From Sphingomonas sp. LY29 (lineage in GTDB: Bacteria; Pseudomonadota; Alphaproteobacteria; Sphingomonadales; Sphingomonadaceae): 64,000 bases of DNA. Shown here one piece after another: positions 40,039 through 60,203 of this stretch (positions within the stretch are counted from its first letter, which is position 1; each line of letters begins with the position of its first letter). The position numbers were made by a program, and so were the translations under genes. The DNA lies in NCBI RefSeq assembly GCF_035593985.1, contig NZ_CP141587.1, positions 1,858,001-1,922,000 of the forward strand, given 5' to 3'. Below the pieces are notes generated by a model that was given only the letters and a program-made list of their open reading frames with translations, ran no database searches and was not told where the DNA came from.

Positions 40039-40060
40039 GCCTTCGTCCTGCACGGCGCGA

Positions 40061-43186: not shown

Positions 43187-44290
43187 ATGTCTCCGGCCAA
43201 TGCCATTTTTCCGGGCGTACCCATCGTCGAATCGCCGCTGTTCGGTCAGCTGGTTGACACGCTTGGCTTGACCGATACGCAGCGATCGGCGGCGACGCAG
43301 CTTCACGAGCGCGGCTATGCGCTCATCGACTTTCCCGACCCCTTGGTTGGCGAGCGGATCGACCGGATCAAGGCGCGGCTGGCGCCGGTGTTCGGAGTGG
43401 ACTTCGACGATCCGGCGGTCATCAAGAATGCCAAGGGCGACCTTCGCGTCCAGGACGCATGGCAGTTCGACGAGGACGTACGCGCCATCGCCGCCAATGC
43501 CGAGGTGCTCGAGCTGCTGTCGGCGCTTTACGGGCGCCGCGCCTTCCCGTTCCAGACGTTGAACTTCCCGGTCGGCACCCAGCAGAATCTGCACAGCGAC
43601 TCGATCCACTTCTCCAGCATCCCGGAACGCTTCATGTGCGGGGTCTGGCTCGCGTTTGAGGACGTCAGCGAAGGCGCAGGGCCGCTCGAATATCTGCCGG
43701 GTTCGCACAAATGGCCGATCGTTTCGAACGAGATGATTGGCCGGCGCGGTGAGGATCACCGCGAAGGATCGGCGCAGGACCCGTTCGAGCAGGCATGGCA
43801 GGCGATGGTCGCTGCGTCGGGCCTGCAGAAGGAGCAATTCCTGCCGCGCAAGGGGCAGGCGCTGATCTGGGCCGCGAATCTTCTGCACGGGGGGTCGTTG
43901 CAGACCGACCCGACGCTGACCCGCTGGAGCCAGGTAACGCATTATTACTTCGACGATTGCGTCTATTACACCCCGGCTTTTTCCAACGAAGCGTTCGGTG
44001 AACTGGACGTCCGGTCGATCACCAACATCGCGACCGGGGCGCTCGTCCCCAATCTGCGTCAGGGCCAGGAATATCGAGTGGCGAAGGCCGAAGCGGCGCC
44101 GCGACGGAAGTTCTGGAAAGGCATGGCGCGAAAGGCGGCTGCCCCGCATCCGGACCTGCCCGCCGATTTCGACGCGGAGGCTTATTACCAGCTGAACCCG
44201 GATGTCGCAAAAAGCGGGGTCGATGCGGCCGAGCATTATCTCAACCATGGTCGCGGCGAGAAGAGGCTCTACCGGCGTCCCTCGCTGTGA
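43187..44290 (+). CDS. Phytanoyl-CoA dioxygenase-like protein with C-terminal FD..YPDV-type module
   Basis: The protein has 367 residues. A PhyH-type Fe(II)/2-oxoglutarate oxygenase core covers about residues 40-315. NLHSDSIHF gives the HxD metal ligands (near 136-144), LLHGGS the distal His (near 234) and TRWSQVTHYYF the 2OG-binding Arg. Residues ~327-365 are a copy of the locus-wide module (DFDAEAYYQLNPDV...HYLNHGRGEKR). It may hydroxylate a sugar or glycolipid intermediate. It starts 11 bp after the glycosyltransferase. Confidence 0.82.
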   Translation: MSPANAIFPGVPIVESPLFGQLVDTLGLTDTQRSAATQLHERGYALIDFPDPLVGERIDRIKARLAPVFGVDFDDPAVIKNAKGDLRVQDAWQFDEDVRAIAANAEVLELLSALYGRRAFPFQTLNFPVGTQQNLHSDSIHFSSIPERFMCGVWLAFEDVSEGAGPLEYLPGSHKWPIVSNEMIGRRGEDHREGSAQDPFEQAWQAMVAASGLQKEQFLPRKGQALIWAANLLHGGSLQTDPTLTRWSQVTHYYFDDCVYYTPAFSNEAFGELDVRSITNIATGALVPNLRQGQEYRVAKAEAAPRRKFWKGMARKAAAPHPDLPADFDAEAYYQLNPDVAKSGVDAAEHYLNHGRGEKRLYRRPSL

Positions 44291-45573
44291 GGCGGCGCGG
44301 GTTCCTGATCGGCGGCGCGACGATCGCGGCGGCCTTACTGCTCGCCGTGGTCCCGGCGAAGGAATCGCCGGCGCAGCGTCGGTCAATCGACAAGCAGATC
44401 GGAAACGACCGGATCACGGTATCGGTCGAGCCCGGCCGCTTTGCCGGCGCCGTCAATTCGCTGACGTTCCGCGGCATCGAATATGTCGATAATTTCGACC
44501 ATGGACGACAGATCCAGTCGGCGCTGCAGATCAATGGGCTGGGCGAATGCCTCAACCCGACCGAGGCAGGATCGAAAGCGGACGCCGCCAAGTCGACGAC
44601 ATCGAGCAAGGCGCAGTCGATCGCGGTCAGTGACAACCGGCTGACCACGGTGACGCAGGCCGCCTACTGGCTTTCGCCTGGCGAACAATATGGCCGCCGT
44701 TGTTCGGCGCTTAGTGGCAAAACCCAGGCCCAGAACCGTTCCGCGCTGTCGCCGGTGCTGATTTCGAAAACGATGTCCTTTTCGCCGCTCCATCCCAATT
44801 TGCTGACGGTCGACGTGTCGTTCAGCGTGCCGAGCGGGCTGCAGTCGGGGAGCGTCGAGGCGCTGACGGGCTATCTGCCGGCCCGGTTCAATAGCTTTTA
44901 TTCCTATGAGCCGGCGACGCGACGGCTGGTCAGGCTGGAGGCCAATACCGCTGGCGCCATGGTCATGGCCCCCGTCATTATCGCCACCGCCGACCGTCGC
45001 CACGCGATGGGGGTCATCTCGCCCGACATCCATCGTCGCGGCTTCGATCGATCCTATTACGCTTACTTCGCCTTTTCCGGGAAAGAAGGCGCGTCCAAAT
45101 GGTCGTGCGTCTTCAACGAGTCGAACATCCCGGCGGGCCAGGCCCTTCGCTATCGCTGCCCGATCGCGGTCGGCACGGTCGCCGAGGTCGTGGCCGCGCT
45201 CGACGCCTTCGCCGTGGCCGAGCGCATGGTAATGACCGCCCGCCCGGCCCCGACCGAACGGTCAGACGGCAAATGGCAGTTCGGCGGTGCAGCGTTCACG
45301 CCGCTCCGCCAGCCGGCAGCCGACCGGATCGCATTGTATGCCTGCGCGATGAAGGGGTCGGGCAATGCGTTCGTGTCGACGCGGATGGACTGCGAGATGT
45401 CGAACCCGGCCGGCATGATCGGCTACGCTCGACAGTCACCGCTCGCCGGTTGGGTCGGCCTCAACCGCTACTATCATGCGGGGCAGGGGAGGCACCTCAT
45501 TTCGACGCAGGAGCCGAGGTCGGTGGGCCAAGGCTACGCGCTCGAAGGGATCCTCGGCTACCTCCCCCGCTGA
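44287..45573 (+). CDS. Secreted protein with DUF5648-like C-terminal repeats
   Basis: The protein has 428 residues and a GTG start overlapping the previous stop (GTGA). The N-terminus RRRGFLIGGATIAAALLL looks like a Tat or Sec signal. A beta-rich middle domain (about 35-330) contains GIEYVDNFDHGRQIQSAL and GECLNPTEAG. The last ~85 residues (ALYACAMKGSGNAFVST, GMIGYARQSPLAGW, LEGILGYL) match the DUF5648 repeat pattern seen in surface proteins. It may bind or process the exported glycan. Middle-domain function unknown. Confidence 0.7.
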   Translation: MRRRGFLIGGATIAAALLLAVVPAKESPAQRRSIDKQIGNDRITVSVEPGRFAGAVNSLTFRGIEYVDNFDHGRQIQSALQINGLGECLNPTEAGSKADAAKSTTSSKAQSIAVSDNRLTTVTQAAYWLSPGEQYGRRCSALSGKTQAQNRSALSPVLISKTMSFSPLHPNLLTVDVSFSVPSGLQSGSVEALTGYLPARFNSFYSYEPATRRLVRLEANTAGAMVMAPVIIATADRRHAMGVISPDIHRRGFDRSYYAYFAFSGKEGASKWSCVFNESNIPAGQALRYRCPIAVGTVAEVVAALDAFAVAERMVMTARPAPTERSDGKWQFGGAAFTPLRQPAADRIALYACAMKGSGNAFVSTRMDCEMSNPAGMIGYARQSPLAGWVGLNRYYHAGQGRHLISTQEPRSVGQGYALEGILGYLPR

Positions 45574-45744
45574 TCCTGGCGCCGTCGAATATTCGCTCGG
45601 CTTCGGAGCCGATCGAACGCACTTCGGCCGCGCCGCTTGGTTGACGCAAATCAGGCCGCAAGCTAACCGGCGCGGCGGTCGAAAGACGCGGAAAAACCGC
45701 ATGAAAGCAATTTCATCTTCTTGAAATAGGTCGAAGGTCTTTTG

Positions 45745-46392
45745 ATGGACACTACTCCCCAGGATCCGCGTCATCTGAACGACATGTTCGATGACAGCTC
45801 GATCGACGCGTATAAGCTGAACTATGCCAACGCCCTGAAAGTGGCACTCGACGGCGTGTCGTCGGCCGAGATCGACAAGCTGTGCCAAACGATCATCCGG
45901 GTCGCCGACGCGGGCGGGCAAATCCTGGTGGCCGGGAACGGCGGGTCGGCGGCAATTGCCGAGCACCTATGCTGCGACTGGACAAAGGGGACGTCCTGCG
46001 AAGGGCATAATGTCATTAACACGCGGTCGATGACGTCCAACGTCGCGCTCTACACCGCGATCGCCAACGATTATGGTTTCGAGAATGTCTTCGGGACGCA
46101 GCTCGATTTCTTCGGGCGCGAAGGCGACCTGCTGATCGCCATATCTTCGTCGGGCAACAGCCCGAACATCCTGAACGCCGTGACGGCCGCGAAGGAGCGG
46201 GGCATGTTCGTCGCGGGCTTCTCGGGCTTCAGCGGCGGGAAGCTGAAGGACATGGTCGACGCGTCGATCTACGTCGGGATCGACAATTACGGCATCGTCG
46301 AGGATGCACACCAGGCCGTGATGCATGTCATCGCGCAATATATCGCCGGACGCCGCGACAAGGCGAATGCGGAAGGCAAGGGCGCGCAGTGA
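45745..46392 (+). CDS. gmhA: Sedoheptulose-7-phosphate isomerase (SIS domain)
   Basis: The protein has 215 residues. The SIS-domain segments are ILVAGNGGSAAIAEHLCCDW (near residues 60-79) and LLIAISSSGNSPNILNAV (near 129-146), with EDAHQAVMH near 192-200. GmhA converts sedoheptulose-7-P to D-glycero-D-manno-heptose-7-P, the first step of heptose activation. It opens a tightly overlapping series with an epimerase, the HddC/GmhB fusion and HddA. Confidence 0.92.
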   Translation: MDTTPQDPRHLNDMFDDSSIDAYKLNYANALKVALDGVSSAEIDKLCQTIIRVADAGGQILVAGNGGSAAIAEHLCCDWTKGTSCEGHNVINTRSMTSNVALYTAIANDYGFENVFGTQLDFFGREGDLLIAISSSGNSPNILNAVTAAKERGMFVAGFSGFSGGKLKDMVDASIYVGIDNYGIVEDAHQAVMHVIAQYIAGRRDKANAEGKGAQ

Positions 46393-47330
46393 AGATCCTC
46401 GTCACCGGCGGCGCCGGCTTCATCGGTAGCCATGTCTGCGACGCGCTGATTGCCAACGGACATGACCTCGTCGTCCTCGACAATTTCTCGCTGGGGCGGG
46501 AAACGAACGTCGAGCACCTGGCCGACAATCCGAACTTCCGGCTGGTGCGCGGCGACGCGACCAATCGCGCGCTGCTGGCCGAGATCTTCGCCGACGGCGC
46601 GTTCGAATGCGTGTTTCATCTGGCCGCGAATTCGGACATCGCACGGTCGCACGCGGCGCCTTCGGTCGATCTCGACAATACGTTCATGACGACCTTCTGC
46701 CTGCTCGAGGCGATGCGCGAAGCGGGGACGAAGCAGATCGTCTTTGCCTCGACTTCGGCCATTTATGGCGAGGCGGCCGGGGAAGTGGGCGAGGATCATG
46801 GCCCCCTGGCGCCCATTTCGCACTATGGCGCGGCCAAGCTCGCGTCCGAGGCTTTCATCAGCAGCTATGGCGAGAATTACGGCATCCAAAGCTGGATCAC
46901 CCGCTTCCCCAACGTGGTCGGTCCGCGCGGCACGCACGGGGCGGTGTTCGATTTCGTGCAAAAGCTGCGGCGCACGCCAGGCGAACTTGAAGTGCTCGGA
47001 GACGGGACTCAGGAAAAGCCGTACTTGAATGTCCACGACTTGGTGGCCGCCATCCTCATGGTGTGGCGCGAGACCAGCGAGCGGATGAACATCTTCAACG
47101 TCGGTGCGCCGACGCGTTCGACGGTTGCGGACATCGCCCGCATCGTGATCGAAGAGGGCCCGGGCGACGCCGACATCCGTTACACCGGCGGCAATCGCGG
47201 CTGGGTCGGTGACGTGCCGAAGTTCGCCTACGACATCAGCAAGATCAGCGCGCTCGGTTGGGCGCCGACGATGACTTCGGACGAAGCCATCCGCGTCGCC
47301 GCCCGCGCGATCTGGGATGAGGCGCAGTGA
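46389..47330 (+). CDS. NAD-dependent sugar epimerase/dehydratase
   Basis: The protein has 313 residues. GTG start overlapping gmhA's stop. The Rossmann motif is [17 protein letters not shown] (4-20). Catalytic FASTSAIYGEA (near 119-129) and YGAAKLASEAF (Tyr/Lys near 145-149) mark an extended SDR. Placement inside the heptose genes suggests it acts on GDP-heptose (epimerase, dehydratase or reductase) or on another NDP-sugar. The exact reaction cannot be read from sequence. Confidence 0.9.
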   Translation: MKILVTGGAGFIGSHVCDALIANGHDLVVLDNFSLGRETNVEHLADNPNFRLVRGDATNRALLAEIFADGAFECVFHLAANSDIARSHAAPSVDLDNTFMTTFCLLEAMREAGTKQIVFASTSAIYGEAAGEVGEDHGPLAPISHYGAAKLASEAFISSYGENYGIQSWITRFPNVVGPRGTHGAVFDFVQKLRRTPGELEVLGDGTQEKPYLNVHDLVAAILMVWRETSERMNIFNVGAPTRSTVADIARIVIEEGPGDADIRYTGGNRGWVGDVPKFAYDISKISALGWAPTMTSDEAIRVAARAIWDEAQ

Positions 47331-48625
47331 AAGCCGTGGTGATCGCCGGCGGCAAGGGCACCCGGCTCGGCCTGGGTGACCTGCCCAAGGCGATGGTCGA
47401 TGTCGACGGGACGCCGTTGCTGGAGCGCACGGTTCGCGCAGCCGTCCGCGACGGGATTACCGACTTCATCTTCCTCACCGGGCACCTGTCGAATGCGATC
47501 GTACGCCACTTCGGTGACGGGCAGAGGTTTGGCGCGACCATCCGGCATGTGGTGGAGAAGGAGCCGTTGGGGACGGCGGGGGCGTTCCGGGAAATCCGCG
47601 ACCTTCTCACCGAGCCGTTCGTAGTGATCTACGGCGATGTCCTGATGGACGTCGACCTTCGTGCCTTTGCCGACGCGGCCGATCGCAACGACGGCGCGGG
47701 CACCTTGTTCGTCCACCCCAACGACCATCCTTACGACAGCGACCTGCTGGAGTGTGACGAGAATGGGCGGATCATCGCCTTCCATCCCAAGCCGCATGCC
47801 GAAGGGGCGTTGTTACCCAATCTAGTCAACGCGGCACTGTATATTCTTCACCCGCGCGTGCTCGATTACATCCCAGTCGAAGGCCAGTCGGATTGGGGCC
47901 GCGACGTCCTCCCGATCGTCGCTCGCGAGGAGAGCCTGTTCGGCTATCGCAGCTGCGAATATGTCAAGGACATCGGCACGCCGGACCGGTTGGCGAAGGC
48001 CGTCAAAAGCCTTCGCGATGGTAAGCTGGATCGTCTCGCGCTGCGCACGGCCAAGCCTGTGCTGTTCCTCGACCGCGACGGCGTGATCAACGAGGAAGTG
48101 GACGGCGCATTGTCCCCTTCGCAAGTGACCGTGCTGCCCGGTGTGGCAAGCGCCATTCGCGCATTCAACGACGCGGGCATTCCCGTCATCTGCGTGACCA
48201 ACCAGCCTGCGCTCGCCAAGGGGTTCATGAGCTGGCAGGACCTTCGTGATGTCGGCGCAGAGATCGATCGTCAACTCGCGGATCAGGCGGGCGCCTATCT
48301 CGACGACCTCCTGATCTGCCCGCATCATCCCGAAGCCGGGTGGGAAGGTGAGGAGCCCGCGCTGAAAATCGACTGCGACTGCCGCAAGCCCGGCGACGGA
48401 ATGCTCCGCACCGCGGCGGCGATGCATAACATCGACCTTGGCCGCTCGTGGCTTGTCGGCGATCGCTATTGCGACGTGGCGGCGGCCGCGTCGGCAGGGG
48501 CGCATTCCATCCTGGTTCGTGGCGGTCATGGCGGGAACGACAGATCGTCGTTTGATGTGCGGCCCGATCATGTCGTCGCCGACCTTGCCGAAGCGGCCCC
48601 GCTCATTCTGGCCGACCTGACATGA
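47327..48625 (+). CDS. Fused heptose-1-P guanylyltransferase and heptose-1,7-bisphosphate phosphatase (HddC-GmhB)
   Basis: The protein has 432 residues. The N-terminal nucleotidyltransferase (1-240) has VIAGGKGTRLGLGDLPKAMVD and FVVIYGDVLMD. The C-terminal HAD domain (about 243-430) has LFLDRDGVINEE (near 246), VTNQPALAKG and the zinc site CPHHPE..CDCRKP of GmhB. Together they provide the phosphatase and guanylyltransferase steps of GDP-D-glycero-alpha-D-manno-heptose synthesis in one polypeptide. It overlaps neighbours by 4 nt on both sides. Confidence 0.88.
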   Translation: MKAVVIAGGKGTRLGLGDLPKAMVDVDGTPLLERTVRAAVRDGITDFIFLTGHLSNAIVRHFGDGQRFGATIRHVVEKEPLGTAGAFREIRDLLTEPFVVIYGDVLMDVDLRAFADAADRNDGAGTLFVHPNDHPYDSDLLECDENGRIIAFHPKPHAEGALLPNLVNAALYILHPRVLDYIPVEGQSDWGRDVLPIVAREESLFGYRSCEYVKDIGTPDRLAKAVKSLRDGKLDRLALRTAKPVLFLDRDGVINEEVDGALSPSQVTVLPGVASAIRAFNDAGIPVICVTNQPALAKGFMSWQDLRDVGAEIDRQLADQAGAYLDDLLICPHHPEAGWEGEEPALKIDCDCRKPGDGMLRTAAAMHNIDLGRSWLVGDRYCDVAAAASAGAHSILVRGGHGGNDRSSFDVRPDHVVADLAEAAPLILADLT

Positions 48626-49596
48626 TCATTTCGCGCACGCCGCTTCGCGTCAGTTTCGTCGGCGGCGGATCCGACCTGCCCAGCTTCTACCGCGAGCATG
48701 GCGGCGCGGTGCTGAGCATGTCGATCCAGAAATATGTCTACCTGTCGATGCATCGCTACTTCGAACCGACCGGCAGCATCCTCAAATATTCGGAAATCGA
48801 AAAGCCCGGCTCGGTCGACGAAATCCGTCATCGCATCATCCGCCAGGTCTTCCGCGATCTGGACATCGACGGCGTCGATTTCAATTCCAGTGCCGACGTG
48901 CCCGCAGGTACGGGAATGGGGTCGTCGAGCGCCTTCACCGTCGGGCTGCTTAATCTCTGCCACGCCTACAAGGGCGAATATGTTTCCCGCGGAAGGCTCG
49001 CGGAGTTGGCGTGCGAGATCGAGATCGACAAGTTGGGCGAGCCGATCGGCAAGCAGGACCAATATGGCTGTGCGCTCGGCGGGATCAATTTCATTGAATT
49101 CCTGCCCGACGGGAGTGTCGCGCACCAGACGGTCCCGCTGACGATCGAGCAGCGGCGCCAGATGGAGCGGAATCTCGTCCTCTTCTATCTCGGCACCACC
49201 CGCTCGGCGAGCGACCTCCTGTCGAAGCAGGCGAAGGCCGTGTCGAGCGACGCCGACAAGCTGGCGACGCTCAGGACCATGGTCGGGCAGGCGCATGACC
49301 TTCGCCGCGACTTGTGCGGGGACATCGACGTCCTCGGGCACTTCCTGCACGACGGCTGGATGCGGAAGCGTCGATTGTCGGCGGATATCTCCAGCCCGTT
49401 GATCGACGATGCCTACGACCGCGCGCTGAAGGCCGGCGCGACCGGGGGGAAGCTGCTCGGGGCAGGCGGGACGGGCTTCCTGCTGTTCTACGCGCCGGAC
49501 GGCAAGGTCGCCGATGTCGAGCGTGAGCTGGCCGAGTTCCGATCGCATCCCGTCTATCTCGACTCCGCGGGTTCGACGATCATCTATAGCGATTGA
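48622..49596 (+). CDS. hddA: D-glycero-alpha-D-manno-heptose-7-phosphate kinase
   Basis: The protein has 324 residues. It is a GHMP kinase: the N-terminus is SRTPLRVSFVGGGSDLPSF, the ATP loop is PAGTGMGSSSAFTVG (near 93-107) and the third motif is KLLGAGGTGFLLFY near 282-295. The GGGSDLP start is typical of HddA/WcbL. It phosphorylates heptose-7-P to the 1,7-bisphosphate, between GmhA and GmhB. ATGA overlap with the preceding gene. Confidence 0.92.
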   Translation: MIISRTPLRVSFVGGGSDLPSFYREHGGAVLSMSIQKYVYLSMHRYFEPTGSILKYSEIEKPGSVDEIRHRIIRQVFRDLDIDGVDFNSSADVPAGTGMGSSSAFTVGLLNLCHAYKGEYVSRGRLAELACEIEIDKLGEPIGKQDQYGCALGGINFIEFLPDGSVAHQTVPLTIEQRRQMERNLVLFYLGTTRSASDLLSKQAKAVSSDADKLATLRTMVGQAHDLRRDLCGDIDVLGHFLHDGWMRKRRLSADISSPLIDDAYDRALKAGATGGKLLGAGGTGFLLFYAPDGKVADVERELAEFRSHPVYLDSAGSTIIYSD

Positions 49597-49604
49597 CGGG
49601 AACG

Positions 49605-52600
49605 ATGAGCGCAGAGCAAAACTCCGTTTCGGAGCGGTCGGGCGACAGTCCGGCCGTTTTGCCGCTTGCTCGGTTCAAGAAGCGGCTGGCAAGACTTGTC
49701 GGCAAGATAGCGAATAAAAAGGTGGATCAGGTGCAACGCGATTATCGGGCATTGGCGGACAGCGGGCTTTTCGATCCCGAATATTATCTGCGGGAAAATT
49801 CCGACGTCGCGAAGCTGGGCATCGATCCGCTCCAGCACTTCATCGACTGCGGTTGGTCCGAGAGCCGAAATCCCAATTCGCTGTTCGATACCCAATGGTA
49901 CCTCGATGAATATCCCGATGTGGCCCAGTCGGGGATCAACCCCTTGCTGCATTACCATCGTATCGGCGGCTTCATCGGCCGGAACCCCAGCCTGCGGTTC
50001 GACAGCAAATGGTATCTGGATTTCTACCCCGACGTTCGCGAAGTCGGCGTCAATCCACTGTCGCATTACCTGGTCAGCGGCCAGTTTGAATCGCGTCAGG
50101 CCAAGTCGGTCGTCGCCGCCGCGGCAGCAGGTGGGCGTGCACAGACGCCGTACGATCATTGGATGGAGGTCAATCGCTTCAGCGCTCGCGACCGCGCCGA
50201 GCTTGAGCAGAGGCTGAAAGGCCACAAGGCGCGTCTGCCGAAGATCTCGGTCGTGACGCCGGTGTACGATACCGACCGTCACCTGCTGACCGAGACTGTC
50301 GATTCCGTGCTCAACCAGGTCTATCAGAACTGGGAGCTATGCCTCGTCAACGATGCCAGCCCAGCCGCGCATATCGCGCCGCAGCTGGAACGCTTCGCGA
50401 CCTCCGATCCGCGCATTCGGGTCAGGCACTTGTCGAAGAACGGCGGTATCTCGATCGCGACCAACGAAGCCGTCGAGATGGCGACCGGCGACGTCGTTCT
50501 GTTTCTCGATCATGACGACCTGCTGACGGTCGATTGCCTTGCGGAAATCGCGCTCCACTATGCCGAGCATCCCGACGTCGACATGGTCTACAGCGACGAC
50601 GACAAGATCGATGTGAAGGGCCGTCGATACGCCCCACAGTTCAAGCCAGACTGGTCCCCGGTCCTGCTGCTGTCGTGGATGTACATCGGCCACGTCTTCA
50701 CCGTGAAGCGGTCGCTGTTTCTCGATGTCGGGGGCTTCCGCGCGGACTTCGACGGATCGCAGGATTACGACTTCGCGCTTCGCGCGGCGGAGCGAGTCCG
50801 CGGCGTCGGCCACGTTCCAAAAATCCTCTATCACTGGCGCGCGGTCGAAGGTTCGACCGCGACCGGCGGCGAGGCAAAACCCAGCAGCATGAACCGCGGC
50901 CTGCTCGCGGTGCAGGAAGCGATCGACCGCCGCGGGATCAAGGGCGCCAAGGCTTTTTTCCCCGACTGGGCGCAGGAAGCGAATGTCGGCATGTTCGACA
51001 TCAAGTTCGCCGACCGGGGGCCCACGGTGACGATCATCATTCCGACCAAGGACCAGGTCGGGCTGCTTCGCAATTGCATCGAGTCGATCGGCAAGACGAC
51101 CTACCGCGATTTTTCGATCCTCGTCGTCGACAATGGCAGCGAAGAGGAAGAGACCGCCGAATATCTCGAAACGCTTTCGGAGAATCCGTCGTGCCGAGTG
51201 GTGGCGATCCCGAACGACAAGGCCGGGTTCAGCTTCGCGCGCGTCAACAACAAGGCGGTCGAACAGTGCGACAGCGAGTTCGTGCTGTTTCTCAACAATG
51301 ACACGCAGGTCATCACCCCCGGCTGGCTCAGCCAGATGATGGGCTATGCCCAGATGCCGGACGTCGGCGCCGTCGGGGCTCGCCTTTATTTCGAGGACGG
51401 CACGCTTCAGCATGCCGGGATCGTGCATGGCTATCACGGCGGTCTCGTCGGGCATGCCTTCCGTGGATTGCCGCCGCATAATTGGGGCTATCTCGGCTTC
51501 GTGCGGAGCGCTCGCGAATATTCGGCCGTGACCGCTGCGTGCATGCTCACGCCGCGCGCGCTGTTTGAGGAAGTCGGCGGGTTCGACGAGGAGAATTTCG
51601 CGGTCGCCTACAACGACGTCGATTATTGCTACCGCCTCGTCCAGCACGGGAAGACCTGCGTCTACTGCCCGACCGCCGAGCTTTGGCACTACGAAGGCAA
51701 GTCGCGCGGCTTCAACGACAATCCCATGGAACGCGCGAACTTTCGCCGCCTTTACGGCGAATGGGTCGATCGCTGGTACAACCCTAATCTGTCGCTGGAG
51801 AATGAGGAGTTCGAGGTCCGGCCGATCCGGCCCGCGACGATCAGCAAGGATCCCATCCGAATCGGCGCCTTTACGCATAATCTGAACAACGAGGGTGCGC
51901 CGACGACGTTGATGGACCTGATCATCGGCATGAAGAAAAAGGGGTTGATCGATCCGGTCATTTTCTCGCCCGCCGATGGTCCGCTGAAGTCGCTTTACGA
52001 GGCGGAAGGATGTCGGGTCATCATTCTCGATGGCGCGATGCATGGCGCGAAGGACCGCGACACGCAGACGACGGGCTTCGCCGGGATCGGCATGCTGCTT
52101 CGCGCGCTTGAGATCGAGGTCGTCATCGCCAACACGCTGCAAAGCTATTGGGCGGTCGAAGGGTCGCGTTTCGCTCGCATTCCGTCGATCCTTGCGCAGC
52201 ACGAGAGCGAGCCGTGGGAAACCTATTTCGACGACTTGGCGCCCGACATGCGCGACGCCGCCTACAAGGCGTTTGCGGACGCGTATCGCGTTCTCTACGT
52301 CGCCGAGGCGACGCGGCGCTCATGGCTGCCGGTCCAGACCCGTCGCAACTTCGAAGTCGTTCGGCACGGCATCCCGCTCGATCGCCTGAAGGCCGAGACG
52401 ACTCGGTGGACGCGCGCTGCTGCCCGCAAGAAGCTTGGCGTTCCAGCGGGCGCGTACGTCCTGTCGGTGGTCGGGACGGTCTGTCGGCGAAAAGGTCAGC
52501 TCGACCTCGTCAAAGCCTATGCCCGCCTGAGCGAAGAGCGGCGCGCCAGCACCTACGTCTTCATCGCGGGCAAGATCGTTGACCCTGAATATATTGTCGA

Positions 52601-53012
52601 GTTCAACGAAGTGCTGGACACCCTCGACAATCCGAATTTGGTGCTGACCGACCACATCGACGACCCGTTCCTGTTCTACGCAGCGAGCGATATTTTCGTC
52701 TGCACCTCACTCATCGAAAGCGCGCCGAGGGTGATCGTCGAAGCGATGGCGTGCGGCCTTCCCATCGTGACCACTCCGGTGTTCGGAATTCCCGAGCTCG
52801 TCGATGAGGGTGTCAACGCGGTCTATTACGAGCCGGGCGACGATCAGGAACTGGCGGAATGGATCGAACGCATGCTGTCGGACGACCAGCTGCGCGGCAA
52901 GCTGGCCAAGAACAGCCCCGCCGTGCTCGCCGGGCAGGCCGGGTTTGCCGAGATGGTCGACCAGTATGGAGAGATCGTTCGACAGGCGGTGAACCTGGAG
53001 ATCGTCGACTAA
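49605..53012 (+). CDS. Tri-domain glycosyltransferase with three N-terminal FD..YPDV modules
   Basis: The protein has 1,135 residues from an ATG; a TTG start 12 nt earlier is possible. Residues ~45-165 hold three copies of the locus module (LFDPEYYLRENSDV, LFDTQWYLDEYPDV, RFDSKWYLDFYPDV). A GT2 domain (about 210-450) has VVTPVYD and FLDHDDLL. A second GT2 domain (about 470-740) has IIIPTKDQ, FLNNDTQ and YNDVDYC. A GT4 domain (about 745-1125) has RKGQLDLVKAYA and TSLIESAPRVIVEAMACG. It could build a repeat unit by itself. The last gene of the operon; its stop overlaps the opposite gene's stop. Confidence 0.9.
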   Translation: MSAEQNSVSERSGDSPAVLPLARFKKRLARLVGKIANKKVDQVQRDYRALADSGLFDPEYYLRENSDVAKLGIDPLQHFIDCGWSESRNPNSLFDTQWYLDEYPDVAQSGINPLLHYHRIGGFIGRNPSLRFDSKWYLDFYPDVREVGVNPLSHYLVSGQFESRQAKSVVAAAAAGGRAQTPYDHWMEVNRFSARDRAELEQRLKGHKARLPKISVVTPVYDTDRHLLTETVDSVLNQVYQNWELCLVNDASPAAHIAPQLERFATSDPRIRVRHLSKNGGISIATNEAVEMATGDVVLFLDHDDLLTVDCLAEIALHYAEHPDVDMVYSDDDKIDVKGRRYAPQFKPDWSPVLLLSWMYIGHVFTVKRSLFLDVGGFRADFDGSQDYDFALRAAERVRGVGHVPKILYHWRAVEGSTATGGEAKPSSMNRGLLAVQEAIDRRGIKGAKAFFPDWAQEANVGMFDIKFADRGPTVTIIIPTKDQVGLLRNCIESIGKTTYRDFSILVVDNGSEEEETAEYLETLSENPSCRVVAIPNDKAGFSFARVNNKAVEQCDSEFVLFLNNDTQVITPGWLSQMMGYAQMPDVGAVGARLYFEDGTLQHAGIVHGYHGGLVGHAFRGLPPHNWGYLGFVRSAREYSAVTAACMLTPRALFEEVGGFDEENFAVAYNDVDYCYRLVQHGKTCVYCPTAELWHYEGKSRGFNDNPMERANFRRLYGEWVDRWYNPNLSLENEEFEVRPIRPATISKDPIRIGAFTHNLNNEGAPTTLMDLIIGMKKKGLIDPVIFSPADGPLKSLYEAEGCRVIILDGAMHGAKDRDTQTTGFAGIGMLLRALEIEVVIANTLQSYWAVEGSRFARIPSILAQHESEPWETYFDDLAPDMRDAAYKAFADAYRVLYVAEATRRSWLPVQTRRNFEVVRHGIPLDRLKAETTRWTRAAARKKLGVPAGAYVLSVVGTVCRRKGQLDLVKAYARLSEERRASTYVFIAGKIVDPEYIVEFNEVLDTLDNPNLVLTDHIDDPFLFYAASDIFVCTSLIESAPRVIVEAMACGLPIVTTPVFGIPELVDEGVNAVYYEPGDDQELAEWIERMLSDDQLRGKLAKNSPAVLAGQAGFAEMVDQYGEIVRQAVNLEIVD

Positions 53013-55813
53013 CTCTGCGCCGGGATTGTCTCAGTTAGCGCTCGATAGAAGCGGTCGCGGATCCGACGCCGTTCGGTCACGCTTTGGTCGTCAACGTCCG
53101 ACGACGACCGCGACTTCTCGCAATCGGCATCGCGACTTTCCCGGGCGTAGACGGCGGCGAGTTCCAGGCCGACCTGGGCACATGCCATCGGCCAAAGTCG
53201 TTCGATCGCGTGAAGTACGGTGCCGTCGACCTTGATCGGCTCGGTCGGCCAAGTCGATTGTATCGTCGCCTCGCGCATCGCGTGAAGAACGGCCCCGCGA
53301 ACCCAGAACATGTTGCCGATCGGGAAAGGCCCGGGATGATAGGGCAGGTTCTCGGTCCACGCGGCGGCGATCTTCTTCGCTTCGGCCCAATTCTCGGTCC
53401 AGCCGTTGTTTCGCGGATTGTCGGGGATGACGAGGCCGACGGCTGGATCGTTGAACAGGTCGATCGCCGGCTGCGACAGGACGCTGCGATACATGTTGTC
53501 TCGCCACCGCTCGCCGAACCAGTCGCCCGCTTCTGGGCTCTTCTTCGTATGCACATGGCACACGACGTCCGAAGGAGCGCATCGCGACGCCAGTTCGTCG
53601 ATGAACGGTCCGATGTCACGTCCGCGGTTGGATGGGGTCACGACGATGTCGATATTCTCCATCGAGAAACGCTGACCGATCGTCCTGATCTCGGAAGCTT
53701 TCTCCTCGTTGGGAGTGGTGATGACGAACGATGCCGATCGCGCGCCCTTGGCGAATTGTCCGAAGATTTCGGGAAGAACGTCGGGGTAATAAGCGTGCAC
53801 ATGGACGATGGTGGACGCGGGCACGTCCTCGATCCTTCGATCCTGGCACCACACCGACCGGTAATGAGCCATGCGCCCATTTTCGTCACGGCGTGAATGC
53901 ACGCCGGGCCGCGGGTTGAAGGTCGCAATGCCAAGGCGGAGCGAGCGCTCGATCAAATGCTTGGTCTCGACCATCTCGCGCTCGTCATTGAAGCGGTTGA
54001 AGCGGGTCTTGAGCGCGGGACCGGTGTAATCCGGATCGACCGTTTCGTTCGGCTCGATCGGCAAATCGCGGAGCGCTTCCGCAGCCTTGAAGACCTCGGC
54101 GGCATAATTGCCGTAGGTGCGCACCGATCCAACCGAGTGCTCCGGACGCTGCCGCTTTTTCCAAGGCCATTTCGCTGCTTGCGAGGCCGTCGTTCGTTCG
54201 ATCGCGTCGACGATCTGCTCGACCGATCCATAGTCGGCTTCGATGAGGTCAATTTCGCCAAGCCGCGCCAGGTCGCCGAGCCCGGTCGCGCCAGCGAACG
54301 CGACCACCGGCGTTGCACGCAACGCCGCATCGAGCGCGACGTTCGGGAGGGGGTCGAGACGCGACGGCACGACGAAAACGTCGGCCGCGTCCATGAGCAC
54401 CTCATACGCGGGCCCGGCAGGCACGAAGTGAACGACGTCGGTTCCGAATTGACACGCGGCCTCCTTGATGTGGACGTGCAGCCAGATACCGAAGCCGCGA
54501 TCGTGTTCGTTGACCTGTTGCCCCACCCAAACGCAGACATGGCGACGGCGTCTGCGGCGAAGATCGGTGGCGACTTGCAGAAAGGTGTCGACCCCCTTGC
54601 GCATCTGAACCGCCCCGGCGGCAAGCACCAACGGGTCATCGCCAAGGTCGATGTTGAGCGATTTTTCGACCAGGGAACGGGCCTCGGCGCGGCTCCACTT
54701 TCGTTCGGAGCCAGCGCTCGGCGGCTGCGGAAGGACGATCGACCGCTGCGGCGGCCGGCCGACTTCCTGGATCAGCGTCGCCCATGATGTCCTCAGGCGC
54801 TCCGACGAGAAGACCAGCAGGTCGCAGTAATTGACGATGCTTCGTTCGAACTGGAAAAAATCTTCGCGGAACTCATGGACGAGGCAGACGATCTGCACGT
54901 CGCATTCGGCGATTGTCCGGATCAGTGGCTCGCAGGCGACGCTAGAAAAAACGGCGCGTGTGATTCCAAACCGCGCATTGAGGCTTTCATAAATGAAGAG
55001 CGCCTCCTGCATATTCGTCCCGGCGTGCACGGTGATCGGGAAGCGATATTGGGCGATATCGAGCAGCGGGCCGTCGTTCAGCAAAAAGAAGATCACGTTG
55101 AACTGCGACGACAGTTCCTGCGCCAGGTCGAGACCGACCTTGGGGGCGCCCGTTTGTGAGCCTTCGTGGATGCCCACGAGGATGAACGGAAGGCCGGGGG
55201 TCACGACGCGGTCGTTGAAGATGATCGAATCAAGCACGTCGAGGTTCGACCGACGGCCTTCTGCGCGGCCATGGCGCATGTAGTGGATAAGCGGCGGGAT
55301 CGGAAAGTCGCGCAGGTCGGGATTGAACCGGATGTAGGCGGCCGCGGAGAAGAAGTCCTCGTCTGCTTCGCCTTTTCGCAGCGCATCGATCAGGCCGCGA
55401 AGATAGTCGGGATGGTCGGGGCCGTGCCCTGGAAACGGGACGAGGCCCTCCGCGATTGCCTGCTGGTCCAACCCTTCAGCCATCAGAAAGCTGGCGAAGG
55501 TGCCGTGGCGGCCTTCCGCCTGGCCGTACTGAATGAAGTGCGCGAACTTGCACTCCGCCTTGGCAAGGTCGGGATAGGTGTGAGCGTAGAAAGCAGGGTC
55601 GAAGAACGGGCCCGGGCTCAGACCCTCGGCTTCGCCCTGATCGACATAGTCTCGAGCGAGAGCCGCCCTGTCGAGGCTCTTTGAAAACCCGCGAAGCCCC
55701 GCATAATATGTCGGATCGAACCGCTCGGATTGCTCGACAATATCGTAAAGCGACACCTCGTCGGATGCGGTGACCGCATCCGAACCTTCGCCATCCTGCA
55801 CAGCGGTCATCAT
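53009..55813 (-). CDS. GT4-RgpF glycosyltransferase with three FD..YPDV-like modules
   Basis: The protein has 934 residues. The N-terminal modules lie near residues 30-70 (divergent), 73-108 (FFDPAFYAHTYPDL) and 152-192 (FFSAAAYIRFNPDL). A GT4 domain (about 205-590) has AAGAVQMRKGVDTFLQVA; its donor motif reads SRLDPLPNVALDAAL, with Asp where E-x7-E has Glu. The C-terminal RgpF (rhamnan synthesis F) domain (about 610-890) has IVHVHAYYPDVLPEIF and HVHTKKSPEAGDW. It probably adds rhamnose or a related sugar. The gene is convergent with the triple-GT gene. Confidence 0.88.
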   Translation of the reverse strand: MMTAVQDGEGSDAVTASDEVSLYDIVEQSERFDPTYYAGLRGFSKSLDRAALARDYVDQGEAEGLSPGPFFDPAFYAHTYPDLAKAECKFAHFIQYGQAEGRHGTFASFLMAEGLDQQAIAEGLVPFPGHGPDHPDYLRGLIDALRKGEADEDFFSAAAYIRFNPDLRDFPIPPLIHYMRHGRAEGRRSNLDVLDSIIFNDRVVTPGLPFILVGIHEGSQTGAPKVGLDLAQELSSQFNVIFFLLNDGPLLDIAQYRFPITVHAGTNMQEALFIYESLNARFGITRAVFSSVACEPLIRTIAECDVQIVCLVHEFREDFFQFERSIVNYCDLLVFSSERLRTSWATLIQEVGRPPQRSIVLPQPPSAGSERKWSRAEARSLVEKSLNIDLGDDPLVLAAGAVQMRKGVDTFLQVATDLRRRRRRHVCVWVGQQVNEHDRGFGIWLHVHIKEAACQFGTDVVHFVPAGPAYEVLMDAADVFVVPSRLDPLPNVALDAALRATPVVAFAGATGLGDLARLGEIDLIEADYGSVEQIVDAIERTTASQAAKWPWKKRQRPEHSVGSVRTYGNYAAEVFKAAEALRDLPIEPNETVDPDYTGPALKTRFNRFNDEREMVETKHLIERSLRLGIATFNPRPGVHSRRDENGRMAHYRSVWCQDRRIEDVPASTIVHVHAYYPDVLPEIFGQFAKGARSASFVITTPNEEKASEIRTIGQRFSMENIDIVVTPSNRGRDIGPFIDELASRCAPSDVVCHVHTKKSPEAGDWFGERWRDNMYRSVLSQPAIDLFNDPAVGLVIPDNPRNNGWTENWAEAKKIAAAWTENLPYHPGPFPIGNMFWVRGAVLHAMREATIQSTWPTEPIKVDGTVLHAIERLWPMACAQVGLELAAVYARESRDADCEKSRSSSDVDDQSVTERRRIRDRFYRALTETIPAQS

Positions 55814-55992
55814 AATCTTTCGAAGAATTCGAGCTTCGCCAATCGCCGCGCCCGCGGCTTTGCTTAAAATGGCGGGCCGCTTTAAGTCAATTCGGAGAAA
55901 TTAACGTAAAGCGTCGCATTAATGGTGGCAACTCAATCGGCTATGGATGCGGAAAACCCAATGCGGCGGCGTCTGCACTTCAGGAAAACTCA

Positions 55993-56904
55993 GTGACGGA
56001 TCGTCTGCGCATACTCGTCATCGGCGGCGGCTTTATTGGCAAGGCGGTCGTTCGACGACTGATCGCCGATGGGCATCAGGTCTCGGTCATCACCCGCGCG
56101 CCGCGCCCGTCGTCGATCGCCGGAGTGGATTGGCGGCACGGGGACATCGTCAGCGCGTGCAGTCCGGACACGCTGTCCGACGTCGATGCCATCTTCTGTT
56201 GTCATGGAACGATCGCGCCCGCCACGAAGCTTGCGAGCGTCGCGGACGCCTTGAGGAGCGAGACGCTTCCGATGGTCGATCTCGCAGAACTGGCGGCCAA
56301 GAAGGGGGTTCGGCGGCTCGTATTCGTGTCATCCGGTGGCACCGTCTACGGAGCCGCGAGCGAGGTTCCGACGTCGGAAGATTGCCGACCGGCGCCGATC
56401 AATACCTACGGAATGACGAAGGTGCAGACCGAATATGCGCTGCTCGACGTCGCGCGCCAGACCGACCTCGGGACGACGATCTTGCGCGTTTCCAATCCCT
56501 TCGGGTTCGATCAGGTGGGGACGTCGCGCAACGGCTTCGTCGCCGCCGCAATCTCGGCCGCGCTGTCAGGCGAATCGTTGGCTCTCTGGGGTGATGGCTC
56601 GGTCGTCCGGGACTTCGTGGCCGTCGATGATGTTGCCGGTGCGGCCGCGCGCGCGCTAACCGATCGGGGCGAGGAGTCTCGCGTTCTCAATGTCGGATCG
56701 GGAGTGGGGACCTCCCTGCAAGAGGTCTGCGACATTGTCGAAGCGGTGGTGAAGCGTCCGCTCCGCATTGCCTTCGAGCAGGGTCGCCCGGTCGACGTCC
56801 CGATCAATGTCCTCGATATCGGGCGCGCTGCCGAGCAACTCGGCTGGCGACCACGAATTGGCCTTAGGCAGGGGATCGAGGAAATCGTCGCCAGATTGGC
56901 CTGA
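55993..56904 (+). CDS. NAD-dependent epimerase/dehydratase
   Basis: The protein has 303 residues from a GTG preceded by AGGA. The nucleotide-binding motif VIGGGFIGKAVVRRL lies at 9-23. FVSSGGTVYG (near 112-121) and YGMTKVQTEYALL (near 137-149) give the catalytic Ser, Tyr and Lys. It is related to UDP-glucose 4-epimerases, though more divergent than the epimerase at 46389. It is divergent from the GT4-RgpF gene across a 180-bp AT-richer gap that should carry both promoters. Substrate unknown. Confidence 0.87.
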   Translation: MTDRLRILVIGGGFIGKAVVRRLIADGHQVSVITRAPRPSSIAGVDWRHGDIVSACSPDTLSDVDAIFCCHGTIAPATKLASVADALRSETLPMVDLAELAAKKGVRRLVFVSSGGTVYGAASEVPTSEDCRPAPINTYGMTKVQTEYALLDVARQTDLGTTILRVSNPFGFDQVGTSRNGFVAAAISAALSGESLALWGDGSVVRDFVAVDDVAGAAARALTDRGEESRVLNVGSGVGTSLQEVCDIVEAVVKRPLRIAFEQGRPVDVPINVLDIGRAAEQLGWRPRIGLRQGIEEIVARLA

Positions 56905-56965
56905 AAGGTTGCCTTGATCACCTCGGGACGGCACGGCGGTCCCGACAACAGATCGGGGCCAAGCG

Positions 56966-58660
56966 ATGCATCACACTGCGGCAAAGATCGGCGGCCTTGT
57001 GCTCAAGGCATATTGCCCGACCGCCGATGGCGACATTCTGGAGATCGGTTCGCTCGATGTGAACGGGTCCCTCAGAGCAGCCGCGCCGCCATACCGCTCC
57101 TACACCGGTATCGATTTCGAGCAGGGGCCGGGCGTGGATATCGTCGTTCAGCCGGGCGAGGAATGGCCGGTCGAGGATGCAAGCTTCGACTTCGTCATGG
57201 CATCCTCGGTCTTCGAGCATGACCCGGCATTTTGGCAGACCTTCAATCGAATGGCGCGCAAGGCGCGACCGGGCGGGTTCCTCTATGTCAGCGCACCGTC
57301 GAACGGGACGATCCATCGCTATCCGCAGGACTGCTGGCGGTTTTATCCCGACGCTGCGCCTGCCCTCGTCGACTGGGCGGCCGAAAACGGCCTGCAACTG
57401 ACGCTGGTCGAAAGCTTCGTTGCCGAACGCGAGCATGACATCTGGAACGACTTTTGCGCGGTGTTCCGCCGGGAGCCGACTGACGAGCCACTTCCCGAGA
57501 AGCTCGTCTTCGAGGATCATGACTGCGTCAACGTCAGGACGTGGAAGTCGCCCGATCTGATCCGCCCCCGCGACGCGAGCCAGGACATGGTGCTGCTGAG
57601 CGGGCAGGCGGCGGAGATCAAGCGGCTGAACGAGCACATCGCCGATCTCGGAAAGGCGATCTCGGACTCGCAGCAGGCGGCGAGGGATTCGAGCGCAGCG
57701 GTGCAAGCGGCGGTGGAACAGGAACTGGCGGATGCCTCGCGCCAGAAAACGGCATTCGATTCGTTGGAAGCCGCCTTGCGGGAATCGGTCGCGTCACTCT
57801 CGATGCAACTCGACGAGACCAAGCAGCGTCTGGCGGCAACGCGTTCCGAGGTGGAGACCCTGAATGCGGAGGGCGCTCAGACGACGGCGAAGCTCGCCAG
57901 CGCGCAGGAAGAGGTAGAGTCAAGTCGGAAGCTGTTGGACGAGGCGGAGGCCAGGGAGCGCGTCCATCAGGAAGCGATCGCGCAACTTCAGGAGCAGATT
58001 TTCGATGCTCAGCGCCTATCAGCCGAGGCCCAGGCGCACGCCGCGGCGCTTCGGGAGCAATTCGACAGCGAGGCCCAACGATTGCGGTCGAATGCGCTTG
58101 ATCGTGAAGAGGCGGAACAGGCGTTGCGCACCGCCGCTGCGAGCGTTCGCGAGGCGGAACAGGATGCCGAAACGGCGAGGCTCGATCTTGCCAAATGCCG
58201 GGACGAGTGCAATCGACTGAGGACGATGATCAACGTTGCTCCGGCCTCTGGCGACGAACTGCCGGCCATGAAATCCGCTCTGCAAGCCCTCGATAAGGAA
58301 AATGCCGCCGCCGACGCGCGCGCCGCCCGGGCCGAAGCGCGACTGGAAACCTGCTACGCTGAGCTGGCGCAGCTGGCCAACACGGTGCTGAAGGCCGAAG
58401 GGCGTGTCGCACTTGGCGACGAGACGATCCGCTGGCTCTCGGAAGTCTATCGGTCGAAAAACACCAAGCGCTCCTGGTACTGGTCGCTTATGCCCGAGGG
58501 ATGGCGCAAGAAGCGGGAGTTTGCGGAGCTGAAGCGCAAAGGGCTCTTCGATGCGACCGCGTACGAGACCCAATACCCCGATGTGAAGGCGGCCGGGTTG
58601 GACCCGCTCTACCACTACATGTTCCACGGAATGCACGAGAAGCTGGAAGGCCGTCGATGA
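56966..58660 (+). CDS. Methyltransferase - long coiled-coil - FD..YPDV module protein
   Basis: The protein has 564 residues. The methyltransferase domain (about 1-185) has DILEIGSLDVNG (motif I, near 23-34), YTGIDFEQGPGVDIV and FDFVMASSVFEHDP (near 73-86). A continuous Ala/Glu/Arg-rich heptad region from about 210 to 490 should form a coiled coil of roughly 280 residues. The C-terminus has one locus module (LFDATAYETQYPDVKAAG...). The layout recalls WbdD-type chain terminators, where a coiled coil measures chain length, but no kinase domain is present. It lies just upstream of the exporter genes. Confidence 0.82.
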   Translation: MHHTAAKIGGLVLKAYCPTADGDILEIGSLDVNGSLRAAAPPYRSYTGIDFEQGPGVDIVVQPGEEWPVEDASFDFVMASSVFEHDPAFWQTFNRMARKARPGGFLYVSAPSNGTIHRYPQDCWRFYPDAAPALVDWAAENGLQLTLVESFVAEREHDIWNDFCAVFRREPTDEPLPEKLVFEDHDCVNVRTWKSPDLIRPRDASQDMVLLSGQAAEIKRLNEHIADLGKAISDSQQAARDSSAAVQAAVEQELADASRQKTAFDSLEAALRESVASLSMQLDETKQRLAATRSEVETLNAEGAQTTAKLASAQEEVESSRKLLDEAEARERVHQEAIAQLQEQIFDAQRLSAEAQAHAAALREQFDSEAQRLRSNALDREEAEQALRTAAASVREAEQDAETARLDLAKCRDECNRLRTMINVAPASGDELPAMKSALQALDKENAAADARAARAEARLETCYAELAQLANTVLKAEGRVALGDETIRWLSEVYRSKNTKRSWYWSLMPEGWRKKREFAELKRKGLFDATAYETQYPDVKAAGLDPLYHYMFHGMHEKLEGRR

Positions 58661-58884
58661 TCGCAGGCGCCGAGCTCGGCGAACGCGTGACGGATGCCGA
58701 GATCGAAAAGCTGCTGACGAGCGGCAGATTCGATCCATTCTGGTATGACGAGCAGTATCCCGACGTGCGCCGAAGCGGCCTGTGTCCTGCCAGTCATTAT
58801 CTGCTCATTGGCCGTCGCCTGGGCCGTCTTGGGAAAAAGCCGGCACCCGATCTGGCGTTCCCTACCGACGACGCCGTCGCATGA
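58657..58884 (+). CDS. Stand-alone FD..YPDV module protein (75 aa)
   Basis: The protein has 75 residues and an ATGA overlap with the previous gene. Residues ~24-63 are one full copy of the capsule-locus module (RFDPFWYDEQYPDVRRSG, then HYLLIGRRLGRLG), with only short flanks. No other domain is present. The overlap implies coupled expression with the coiled-coil methyltransferase. It might be a docking or competing partner of the other module-bearing proteins. Confidence 0.75.
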   Translation: MIAGAELGERVTDAEIEKLLTSGRFDPFWYDEQYPDVRRSGLCPASHYLLIGRRLGRLGKKPAPDLAFPTDDAVA

Positions 58885-59039
58885 CGCCATGCCGCCGCGC
58901 ACCGTATAATCCGGTTGTCGTTACGGGTCCCGCAGAGTAAGGGCGTCGGCAGCCTCATCCCATTGTCTTCAGGCGGTTTATCACCGCCCTTCGCGCCGAC
59001 CTCTCGACAGTGTGTTGCGCCAGCCCTTATAGGAAACCC

Positions 59040-60203
59040 ATGAACGCGCCTCCGACGGACCAGGAAATTCTCCGCGCCCCTACTCGCAAGGCGTCGCGCC
59101 TGAAGTTTCTAGGGCGGCACCGCTGGTTCGTGGTTTTCGTCGGGCTGCCGACGTTGCTCGCCATTCTCTATTACGGCCTGATCGCTTCGGACGTGTACAT
59201 TTCCCAGTCGCGGTTCGTCATCAAGACACCGGGGCAAAAGGGCATGCAGACGACGACGCTGGCAAGCCTGATCCAGACGACCGGCTTTTCGAGCGGCAAG
59301 GATCAGACCCAGGAAGTCATCGAATATATTCAGTCGCGCGACGCGCTGAAGGCGCTCGAAGGACGCGTGAATGTCCGCCAGCGCTACTCGCAGCGCGATG
59401 CTGACTTCCTCAGCCGCTTCCCGGAGATTTTCCGCGATACCTCGTTCGAAAATCTCTATCGCTACTACGGCAAGAAGGTGAATGCGGAGATTGACGCCGA
59501 GAGCGGCATGGCCGTGCTCGAAGTGCGCGCCTTCCGACCTGAGGATGCCTTCCTCATCAACGCGCAATTGCTCGACCTCAGCGAAACGCTCATCAACCGC
59601 CTGAACCAGCGCGCCGAAGGCCGCGCCATCGCCGAGGCGGAGCGCCGCGTGACCATCGCGGAGGACCGTGTCCGCAATGCGCGCAGCCAGATGGCCGAAT
59701 TCCGCGACCGTCAGGAAATCGTCGATCCGGCGAAGCAGGCCACCGCCGCGCTCGAAATTTCGAACGAACTGATTGCCGAGCAGGCGGCGCTTCGCTCGCA
59801 GCTGTCGCTCATCAGCCGCGCGGCGCCGCGTCATCCCGCGATCCCCGCCTTGCGGAGCCGCATCTCGGCGATCGGCCAGCAGATCGATGCACAATCGGGT
59901 CGGGCCGTCGGCGGTACCAACAACATCGCGTCAAAGCTGAGCCGCTTCCAGCAGCTCGAGCTTGAGCAGGAGTTCGGGACTCAGACCCTGACCGCCGCGA
60001 CGGCGAGCCTGGAGCAGGCACGTACCGAGGCGCAGAAGCAGCAATTCTACCTTGAGCGGGTGGTCGAGCCGAATAAGCCTGATCTTCCCCTGCTGCCGAA
60101 CCGCCTGCGCTCGATCCTCGTGATCTTCGCCGCTTCGATGTGCCTCTACTTCATCGGCTGGATGCTGGTGGTCGGCATTCTCGAGCACTCGCCCGAAGAC
60201 TAG
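59040..60203 (+). CDS. kpsE: Capsule export inner-membrane protein KpsE (PCP/OPX-partner)
   Basis: The protein has 387 residues. Two membrane helices lie near residues 30-50 and 360-380 and flank a large periplasmic part with coiled coil (about 195-345). ISQSRFVIKTPGQK near 58-71 is typical of the KpsE/CtrB/BexC family. The protein bridges the KpsMT transporter and the outer-membrane OPX protein. A 155-bp non-coding gap precedes it and probably holds a promoter. Confidence 0.93.
   Translation: MNAPPTDQEILRAPTRKASRLKFLGRHRWFVVFVGLPTLLAILYYGLIASDVYISQSRFVIKTPGQKGMQTTTLASLIQTTGFSSGKDQTQEVIEYIQSRDALKALEGRVNVRQRYSQRDADFLSRFPEIFRDTSFENLYRYYGKKVNAEIDAESGMAVLEVRAFRPEDAFLINAQLLDLSETLINRLNQRAEGRAIAEAERRVTIAEDRVRNARSQMAEFRDRQEIVDPAKQATAALEISNELIAEQAALRSQLSLISRAAPRHPAIPALRSRISAIGQQIDAQSGRAVGGTNNIASKLSRFQQLELEQEFGTQTLTAATASLEQARTEAQKQQFYLERVVEPNKPDLPLLPNRLRSILVIFAASMCLYFIGWMLVVGILEHSPED

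Follow-up and report, generated by a model that had tools for sequence, protein, structure and literature searches.

Terminators of ATP-binding cassette (ABC)-dependent O-antigen synthesis are built around a coiled-coil ruler, the far end of which bears an amphipathic helix and recruits the polymerase; in WbdD this recruiting part is the C-terminal region (PMC11231755, PMC3482155). The WbdD of O8 is described as a methyltransferase only, without a kinase (PMC3482155). Here we analysed a stretch of 64,000 nucleotides from Sphingomonas sp. LY29 (contig NZ_CP141587.1, positions 1,858,001 to 1,922,000; hereafter the window), in which five open reading frames (ORFs) between positions 43187 and 58884 share a 38-residue tandem repeat, here called the module. 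This widespread repeat has no entry in the libraries searched and occupies the site where the WbdD precedent puts polymerase recruitment. Its fold can be predicted, and our leading, if tentative, reading is that of a polysaccharide-binding repeat that may keep enzymes on the nascent chain.

Modules were counted with hidden Markov models (HMMs), as counting by regular expression undercounts. Across 485 modules, the residues F2, Y7, H24 and G29 are each conserved at 98–99%, and the first 36 positions of the HMM consensus read LFDTAWYLAQYPDVAAAGINPLLHYLRYGAREGRNP. Proteins carry between 1 and 27 copies, and the commonest spacing of neighbouring copies is 38 residues (n = 294). The detection HMM was built from 466 modules of other proteins, with the window proteins and their four closest relatives excluded; these modules had been gathered iteratively with an HMM seeded from the window copies, which makes the detection model independent of the window in sequence but not in origin. 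In a six-frame translation of the window it recovered eight of nine copies (E = 7.1e-19 to 6.9e-8), while the next-best stretch reached E = 0.17 and the best of a reversed control E = 0.78. The ninth copy, the first of the RgpF protein, is degenerate and, apart from its two ends (2.4 and 7.3 bits), goes unmatched, but it stands in register, its end being the start of the next copy. The nine copies in five ORFs proposed in an earlier note on this DNA are all in place. The unit of 40 residues given there is corrected by the period of 38, and, where that note had called two of the three RgpF copies divergent, only one is badly degenerate.

The five carriers differ in the enzyme to which the module is joined. 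A PhyH-family (2-oxoglutarate oxygenase-like) protein (43187–44290, plus strand; Pfam PF05721, E = 3e-16) ends in one module (44168–44266; E = 3.9e-11); its ORF is open from 43094, with the ATG at 43187 as the likely start. Three N-terminal modules (49767–49877, 49881–49991 and 49998–50099; E = 1.2e-17, 7.1e-19 and 1.9e-14) precede the catalytic domains of a triple glycosyltransferase of GT2-GT2-GT4 type (49593–53012, plus strand; PF00535 in two stretches, PF00534). A GT4-RgpF protein on the minus strand (53009–55813; PF05045, E = 2.5e-37, and PF00534) likewise has three N-terminal modules, the degenerate one at about 55607–55723 and two intact ones at 55505–55606 (E = 6.9e-8) and 55244–55354 (E = 1.4e-11). 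The fourth carrier (56966–58660, plus strand; PF08241, E = 4.3e-9) consists of a methyltransferase, a long coiled coil, a Trp/Arg-rich linker and a C-terminal module (58544–58642; E = 1.1e-12), and it is followed by a stand-alone module protein of 75 residues (58657–58884, plus strand, read from the sequence; module at 58729–58827, E = 8.6e-13). By similarity, modules tend to fall together with others from the same host and site: for the triple glycosyltransferase and for the PhyH protein the nearest is the same-position module of the orthologue, and those of methyltransferase proteins are most like one another and a coiled-coil fragment of a relative (G017). The RgpF-protein and stand-alone modules have no clear nearest kin.

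Among close relatives, the module keeps company with capsule genes. In a sample of 41 genomes (the own genome and 40 relatives; module threshold E ≤ 0.001), modules occur in 9 and KpsC/KpsS-type proteins (PF05159) in 13, and all 9 module genomes fall within those 13 (Fisher p = 2e-6; as the genomes are related, this is not a clean probability). In each of the nine, the nearest module lies 7.7–30.7 kb from a KpsC/S gene. In genus members with more than one module ORF, these are clustered in stretches of at most 34 kb (six ORFs, G017), 24 kb (four, G022) and 28 kb (two, G007); five of the nine genomes have a single module ORF. G017 and G022 also encode PhyH-module and methyltransferase-coiled-coil-module proteins. 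For the PhyH protein, the module shows 58–64% and the catalytic part 64% identity. A search with the tail of the methyltransferase protein gave one relative, near-identical, among 10 candidates; in the nearest named relative, Sphingomonas sp. LY160, this tail is 96% identical. Modules are accessories: of 80 loci fetched for a relative of the triple glycosyltransferase, just 10 contain any module, in some cases in a different gene.

The stand-alone protein may be the leftover N-terminus of a module-glycosyltransferase gene and not a free adaptor. In G017 the corresponding site ahead of the kpsE-like gene encodes a 444-residue protein that starts with a similar module and is glycosyltransferase-like by BLAST, without a Pfam match; in G022 the methyltransferase and kpsE-like genes have nothing between them, and a search with the stand-alone protein gave one relative among 3 candidates. 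Against this origin stand an intact relative with 97% identity (P0092), the overlap of the stand-alone ATG with the upstream stop (ATGA), which couples the two genes, and the failure to find a trace of a glycosyltransferase part. The stand-alone module is also barely nearer to the N-terminal single modules of G017 (0.49) than to the third module in the triple glycosyltransferase of G022 (0.48).

Further away, the picture broadens from capsule enzymes to secreted proteins. In a class-wide sample of 289 genomes (module threshold E ≤ 1e-5), modules were found in 23, PF05159 in 51 and both in 4 (G000, G058, G178 and G259, the PF05159 matches of the last two being weak). No association with KpsC/S was seen across the class (4/23 module genomes against 47/266 others; Fisher p = 1). 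From 20 of the other 22 module genomes we retrieved 60 stretches, selected among the matches listed; of the 70 module ORFs of at least 20 bits that they contain, 29 are repeats-in-toxin (RTX) proteins by motif count, 13 are enzyme-like by BLAST and 28 are unclassified. Pfam searches with some of the unclassified ORFs gave GT92, GT2, polysaccharide pyruvyltransferase, methyltransferase, S8 peptidase, Calx-beta and RTX repeats, and for several no useful match. A class-wide association with ABC exporters was not upheld either: a scan of 22 module genomes with PF02563 and PF01061, judged by eye among the matches listed, placed an enzyme-type module about 3 kb from an exporter membrane gene only in G131, and RTX-type modules about 5–10 kb from such a gene in G081, G186 and G267. 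The own genome encodes two RTX proteins with a 40-residue form of the repeat (G000:C1:1737651-1738484 and 325913-326386; L020 and L021). The 38- and 40-residue forms align by profile (hhalign probability 97%) and share the same three-helix pattern. The larger of these two proteins has, by eye, the look of an M10-type peptidase.

In a homologue search biased to glycosyltransferase-sized proteins, with domains counted by eye, a glycosyltransferase-type domain is present in 71 of the 91 homologues, a total that takes in those of the window; 14 have no Pfam domain and 6 are others. Enzyme partners of the module include GT2, GT4, GT92, GT61, RgpF, WsaF, polysaccharide pyruvyltransferase, methyltransferases and, in some homologues, PF13469, which we take to be a sulfotransferase family; the module is also found on M10 and S8 peptidases. 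The three-module stretch matches 111 of 72,556 plasmid records and none of 50,697 phage records. Among the seven plasmid regions that were opened, polysaccharide-type ABC exporter genes lie near the module gene in four (two from E. coli, one each from Azospirillum and Sphingobium) and are absent from three (Paracoccus, Rhodobacteraceae SC52 and Pseudoroseomonas). On IMG/VR contigs, a degenerate DNA pattern for the module picked out 50 stretches, all 50 confirmed by HMM; one was checked for being a true viral gene, and there an 817-residue protein with two modules sits amid phage portal, head and tail genes (L245:8210-10660). PHROG gave no match for this protein, and the phage collection contained no relative.

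None of the domain libraries searched accounts for the module. The copies of Pfam, NCBIfam and PHROG that we searched gave no significant match over the modules (NCBIfam for the triple glycosyltransferase, best 25 of 58 families; PHROG for two sequences, with one insignificant match at E = 0.27), and a newer precomputed Pfam set lists no family common to the module-rich proteins. TPR and Sel1 profiles gave nothing over the window modules at E ≤ 1, the TPR matches of one further protein (L052) lying outside its modules, and no carbohydrate-binding module (CBM) or LysM family of Pfam matched over the modules in the proteins scanned; membership of TPR, Sel1 or CBM families was accordingly rejected. 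DUF4214, a domain common to secreted and glycosyltransferase proteins, was also discarded as the identity of the repeat, as it has no Pfam match in the module proteins scanned. A relative of the methyltransferase protein (P0093) carries PF28367.1, a newer Pfam family beyond our local scans; it is probably not the repeat, because the listings for the proteins richest in modules, P0001 and P0002, lack it. Against the PDB, no sequence match was better than E = 0.02, and the best ones (a dynein-like chain and designed ankyrin proteins) look like chance. A description of the repeat was not found in the literature either, which is weak evidence of absence, as sequence motifs can hardly be searched for in text. 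In the libraries and literature searched, the module did not turn up as an already characterised domain, which would have counted against the reading of the earlier note.

An AlphaFold model of 49710–50138 (plus strand) shows a cap helix followed by three modules of three short helices each (predicted local distance difference test score 95.4; predicted template modelling score 0.88), so that the modules are confidently predicted to form a three-helix solenoid. The modelled stretch has no fold match in the PDB. A fold search with the model returned giant-virus glycosyltransferases, an FkbM methyltransferase and a DUF5672 protein (Hyperionvirus, Fadolivirus), all of them weak matches in fold only (best E = 3.1e-3; template modelling score at most 0.33).

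We lean towards polymer binding because the partners of the module differ in fold and yet most probably act on polysaccharide, and because the same repeat occurs on secreted RTX proteins, M10 and S8 peptidases and the phage cassette protein, without cytoplasmic partners. Attached to enzymes but separate from their catalytic domains, the module would, in a capsule locus, keep the elongating chain close to the membrane-side end of the assembly machinery, so that the polymerase and the enzymes that modify or end the chain all remain with it. For the secreted RTX proteins and the single phage structural protein, the proposed ligand is a polymer of the same kind, bound extracellularly. A more detailed version, which we hold possible with less assurance, is that of an undescribed polysaccharide-binding repeat with a fold not in the PDB, holding the nascent chain where ruler and polymerase meet in systems with an ABC exporter, acting outside the cell on RTX proteins and the phage structural protein, and possibly belonging also to giant-virus glycosylation enzymes.

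Several observations weigh against polysaccharide binding. The module matches no known carbohydrate-binding family; and few module genes outside the own order lie in polysaccharide loci, sugar genes having been found beside 1 of 25 RTX and 10 of 35 non-RTX stretches (a limited BLAST with 14 window genes over about 8 kb). A protein named as a cytochrome P450 (P0013) carries eight modules, and the PhyH protein may act on something other than polysaccharide. The near-invariant residues may be purely structural. That modules sort by host and site could reflect specific protein partners, although descent would be enough to produce it.

Such partners are the core of the main rival, in which the module docks proteins: placed like the polymerase-recruiting C-terminal region of WbdD, it would be a membrane-side recruiter of polymerase, terminator and modifying enzymes. 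We consider this less likely but take it seriously, because WbdD-type rulers recruit the polymerase at the far end of the coiled coil. The order of methyltransferase, coiled coil, W/R-rich linker (read by eye) and module is found in the window, in G017 and G022 and on the E. coli plasmid p13QT31-2. In the window protein, the coiled coil is marked by an SMC-like match to residues 212–470 and by a home-made heuristic at 210–494 (a heuristic positive for 34 of 192 module proteins, against a shuffled background of 16/194). As to a possible amphipathic membrane helix after the coiled coil, an SWRxTxPLR-like motif occurs in 5 of 191 module proteins, each time 36–55 residues before the module, and not in the window protein. 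The p13QT31-2 protein has two modules and is encoded beside ABC permease, ABC ATPase and export genes; DNA matching its gene is present in 17 of the 5,426 E. coli genomes searched, of which 14 have 80% or more of the gene, and 15 of 18 places are on plasmids. A second E. coli plasmid, pKTa005_1 (L240:10336-15699), encodes a protein with a sulfotransferase-like start, long heptad-like repeats (both by eye; heuristic coiled coil at 490–533), a linker and four modules. It is annotated as a glycosyltransferase and lies beside ABC exporter genes and cysDNC, and this combination with the sulfotransferase-like N-terminus suggests a sulfated surface polysaccharide.

Docking is also favoured by loci with up to six module ORFs and by the persistence of the module where the methyltransferase has diverged (47% identity over the module, 30–31% over the catalytic part). 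It fits poorly with the modules of RTX and phage cassette proteins, and with the single module ORF of five of the nine module genomes. The latter count makes a second module protein unnecessary, which weakens homotypic pairing of module proteins as a requirement. A passive solenoid without ligand, a scaffold setting distances such as that between ruler and polymerase, would suit the widely varying copy number and the optional presence of modules on related enzyme cores, but it is improbable, as the single C-terminal modules of the PhyH and methyltransferase proteins space nothing and the PhyH module is about as conserved as its catalytic part.

The function proposed in the earlier note, a docking or polymer-binding tag that assembles a capsule synthesis complex, survives in part. 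Within the order, KpsC/S genes lie within 31 kb of a module in all nine module genomes, and in some ABC-exporter loci the module stands just after a terminator-like coiled coil. A capsule-only tag is too narrow, because RTX proteins (29 of the 70 class ORFs) and a phage cassette also carry the module, and the association with KpsC/S does not extend across the class. If the module binds the chain or the polymerase, it would help to explain how several enzymes are kept on a single chain in capsule systems with an ABC exporter, and would open a route to annotating hypothetical and RTX proteins.

The locus around the modules is of KpsC/S type. Two KpsC/KpsS-type capsule proteins are encoded on the minus strand at 30770–33621 by overlapping ORFs (30770–32374 and 31960–33621; PF05159, E = 4e-68 and 3e-41), as is a Wza/KpsD-type export protein at 40061–41239 (PF02563, SLBB). 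Downstream of the methyltransferase-coiled-coil gene and the stand-alone gene follow, on the plus strand, genes for a Wzz/KpsE-like protein (59010–60203; PF02706 at 23.3 bits, under the cut-off of 25.5), a KpsM-like ABC exporter membrane protein (60205–60990; PF01061) and a KpsT-like ABC exporter ATPase (60990–61634; PF00005). Adjoining the exporter genes is a gene for a DUF5672 protein (PF18922; 61631–62476), a family also seen among the weak giant-virus fold matches. Kdo (3-deoxy-D-manno-octulosonate) pathway genes are expected with KpsC/S capsules, and genes of the DAHP-synthase family (39196–40053), for a cytidylyltransferase (62430–63242) and for a SIS-CBS protein (63249–63965) fit Kdo synthesis. 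Four genes at 45742–49596, for a SIS isomerase, an epimerase, a fused nucleotidyltransferase-phosphatase and a kinase as judged from the sequence, look like a GDP-heptose pathway. The PhyH gene is followed by one for a hypothetical protein without a clear Pfam match (44287–45573).

Several known systems resemble the module or its carriers in part. CBMs and glycan-binding repeats such as LysM are small, repeated and found on diverse enzymes and secreted proteins, as the module is. With TPR- and Sel1-like repeats it shares the character of a short helical tandem repeat, its own solenoid being predicted; it differs in having three helices per 38 residues and another consensus. The RTX-protein repeats of alphaproteobacteria have a period of about 40 residues in the own-genome examples, and their hosts are not cytoplasmic enzymes. 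Closest are the WbdD-type terminators of E. coli O9a and Klebsiella O3/O5, with ORF6 of Klebsiella O7, which combine a terminal methyltransferase, a long coiled coil and a membrane-side region with an ABC exporter, as the window protein does with a putative membrane-side region. The window protein differs from them in that it has no Pfam match to a kinase domain, a domain present in the O9a WbdD, and carries a 38-residue module after the coiled coil, and its locus is of KpsC/S type, whereas WbdD loci are of O-antigen type.

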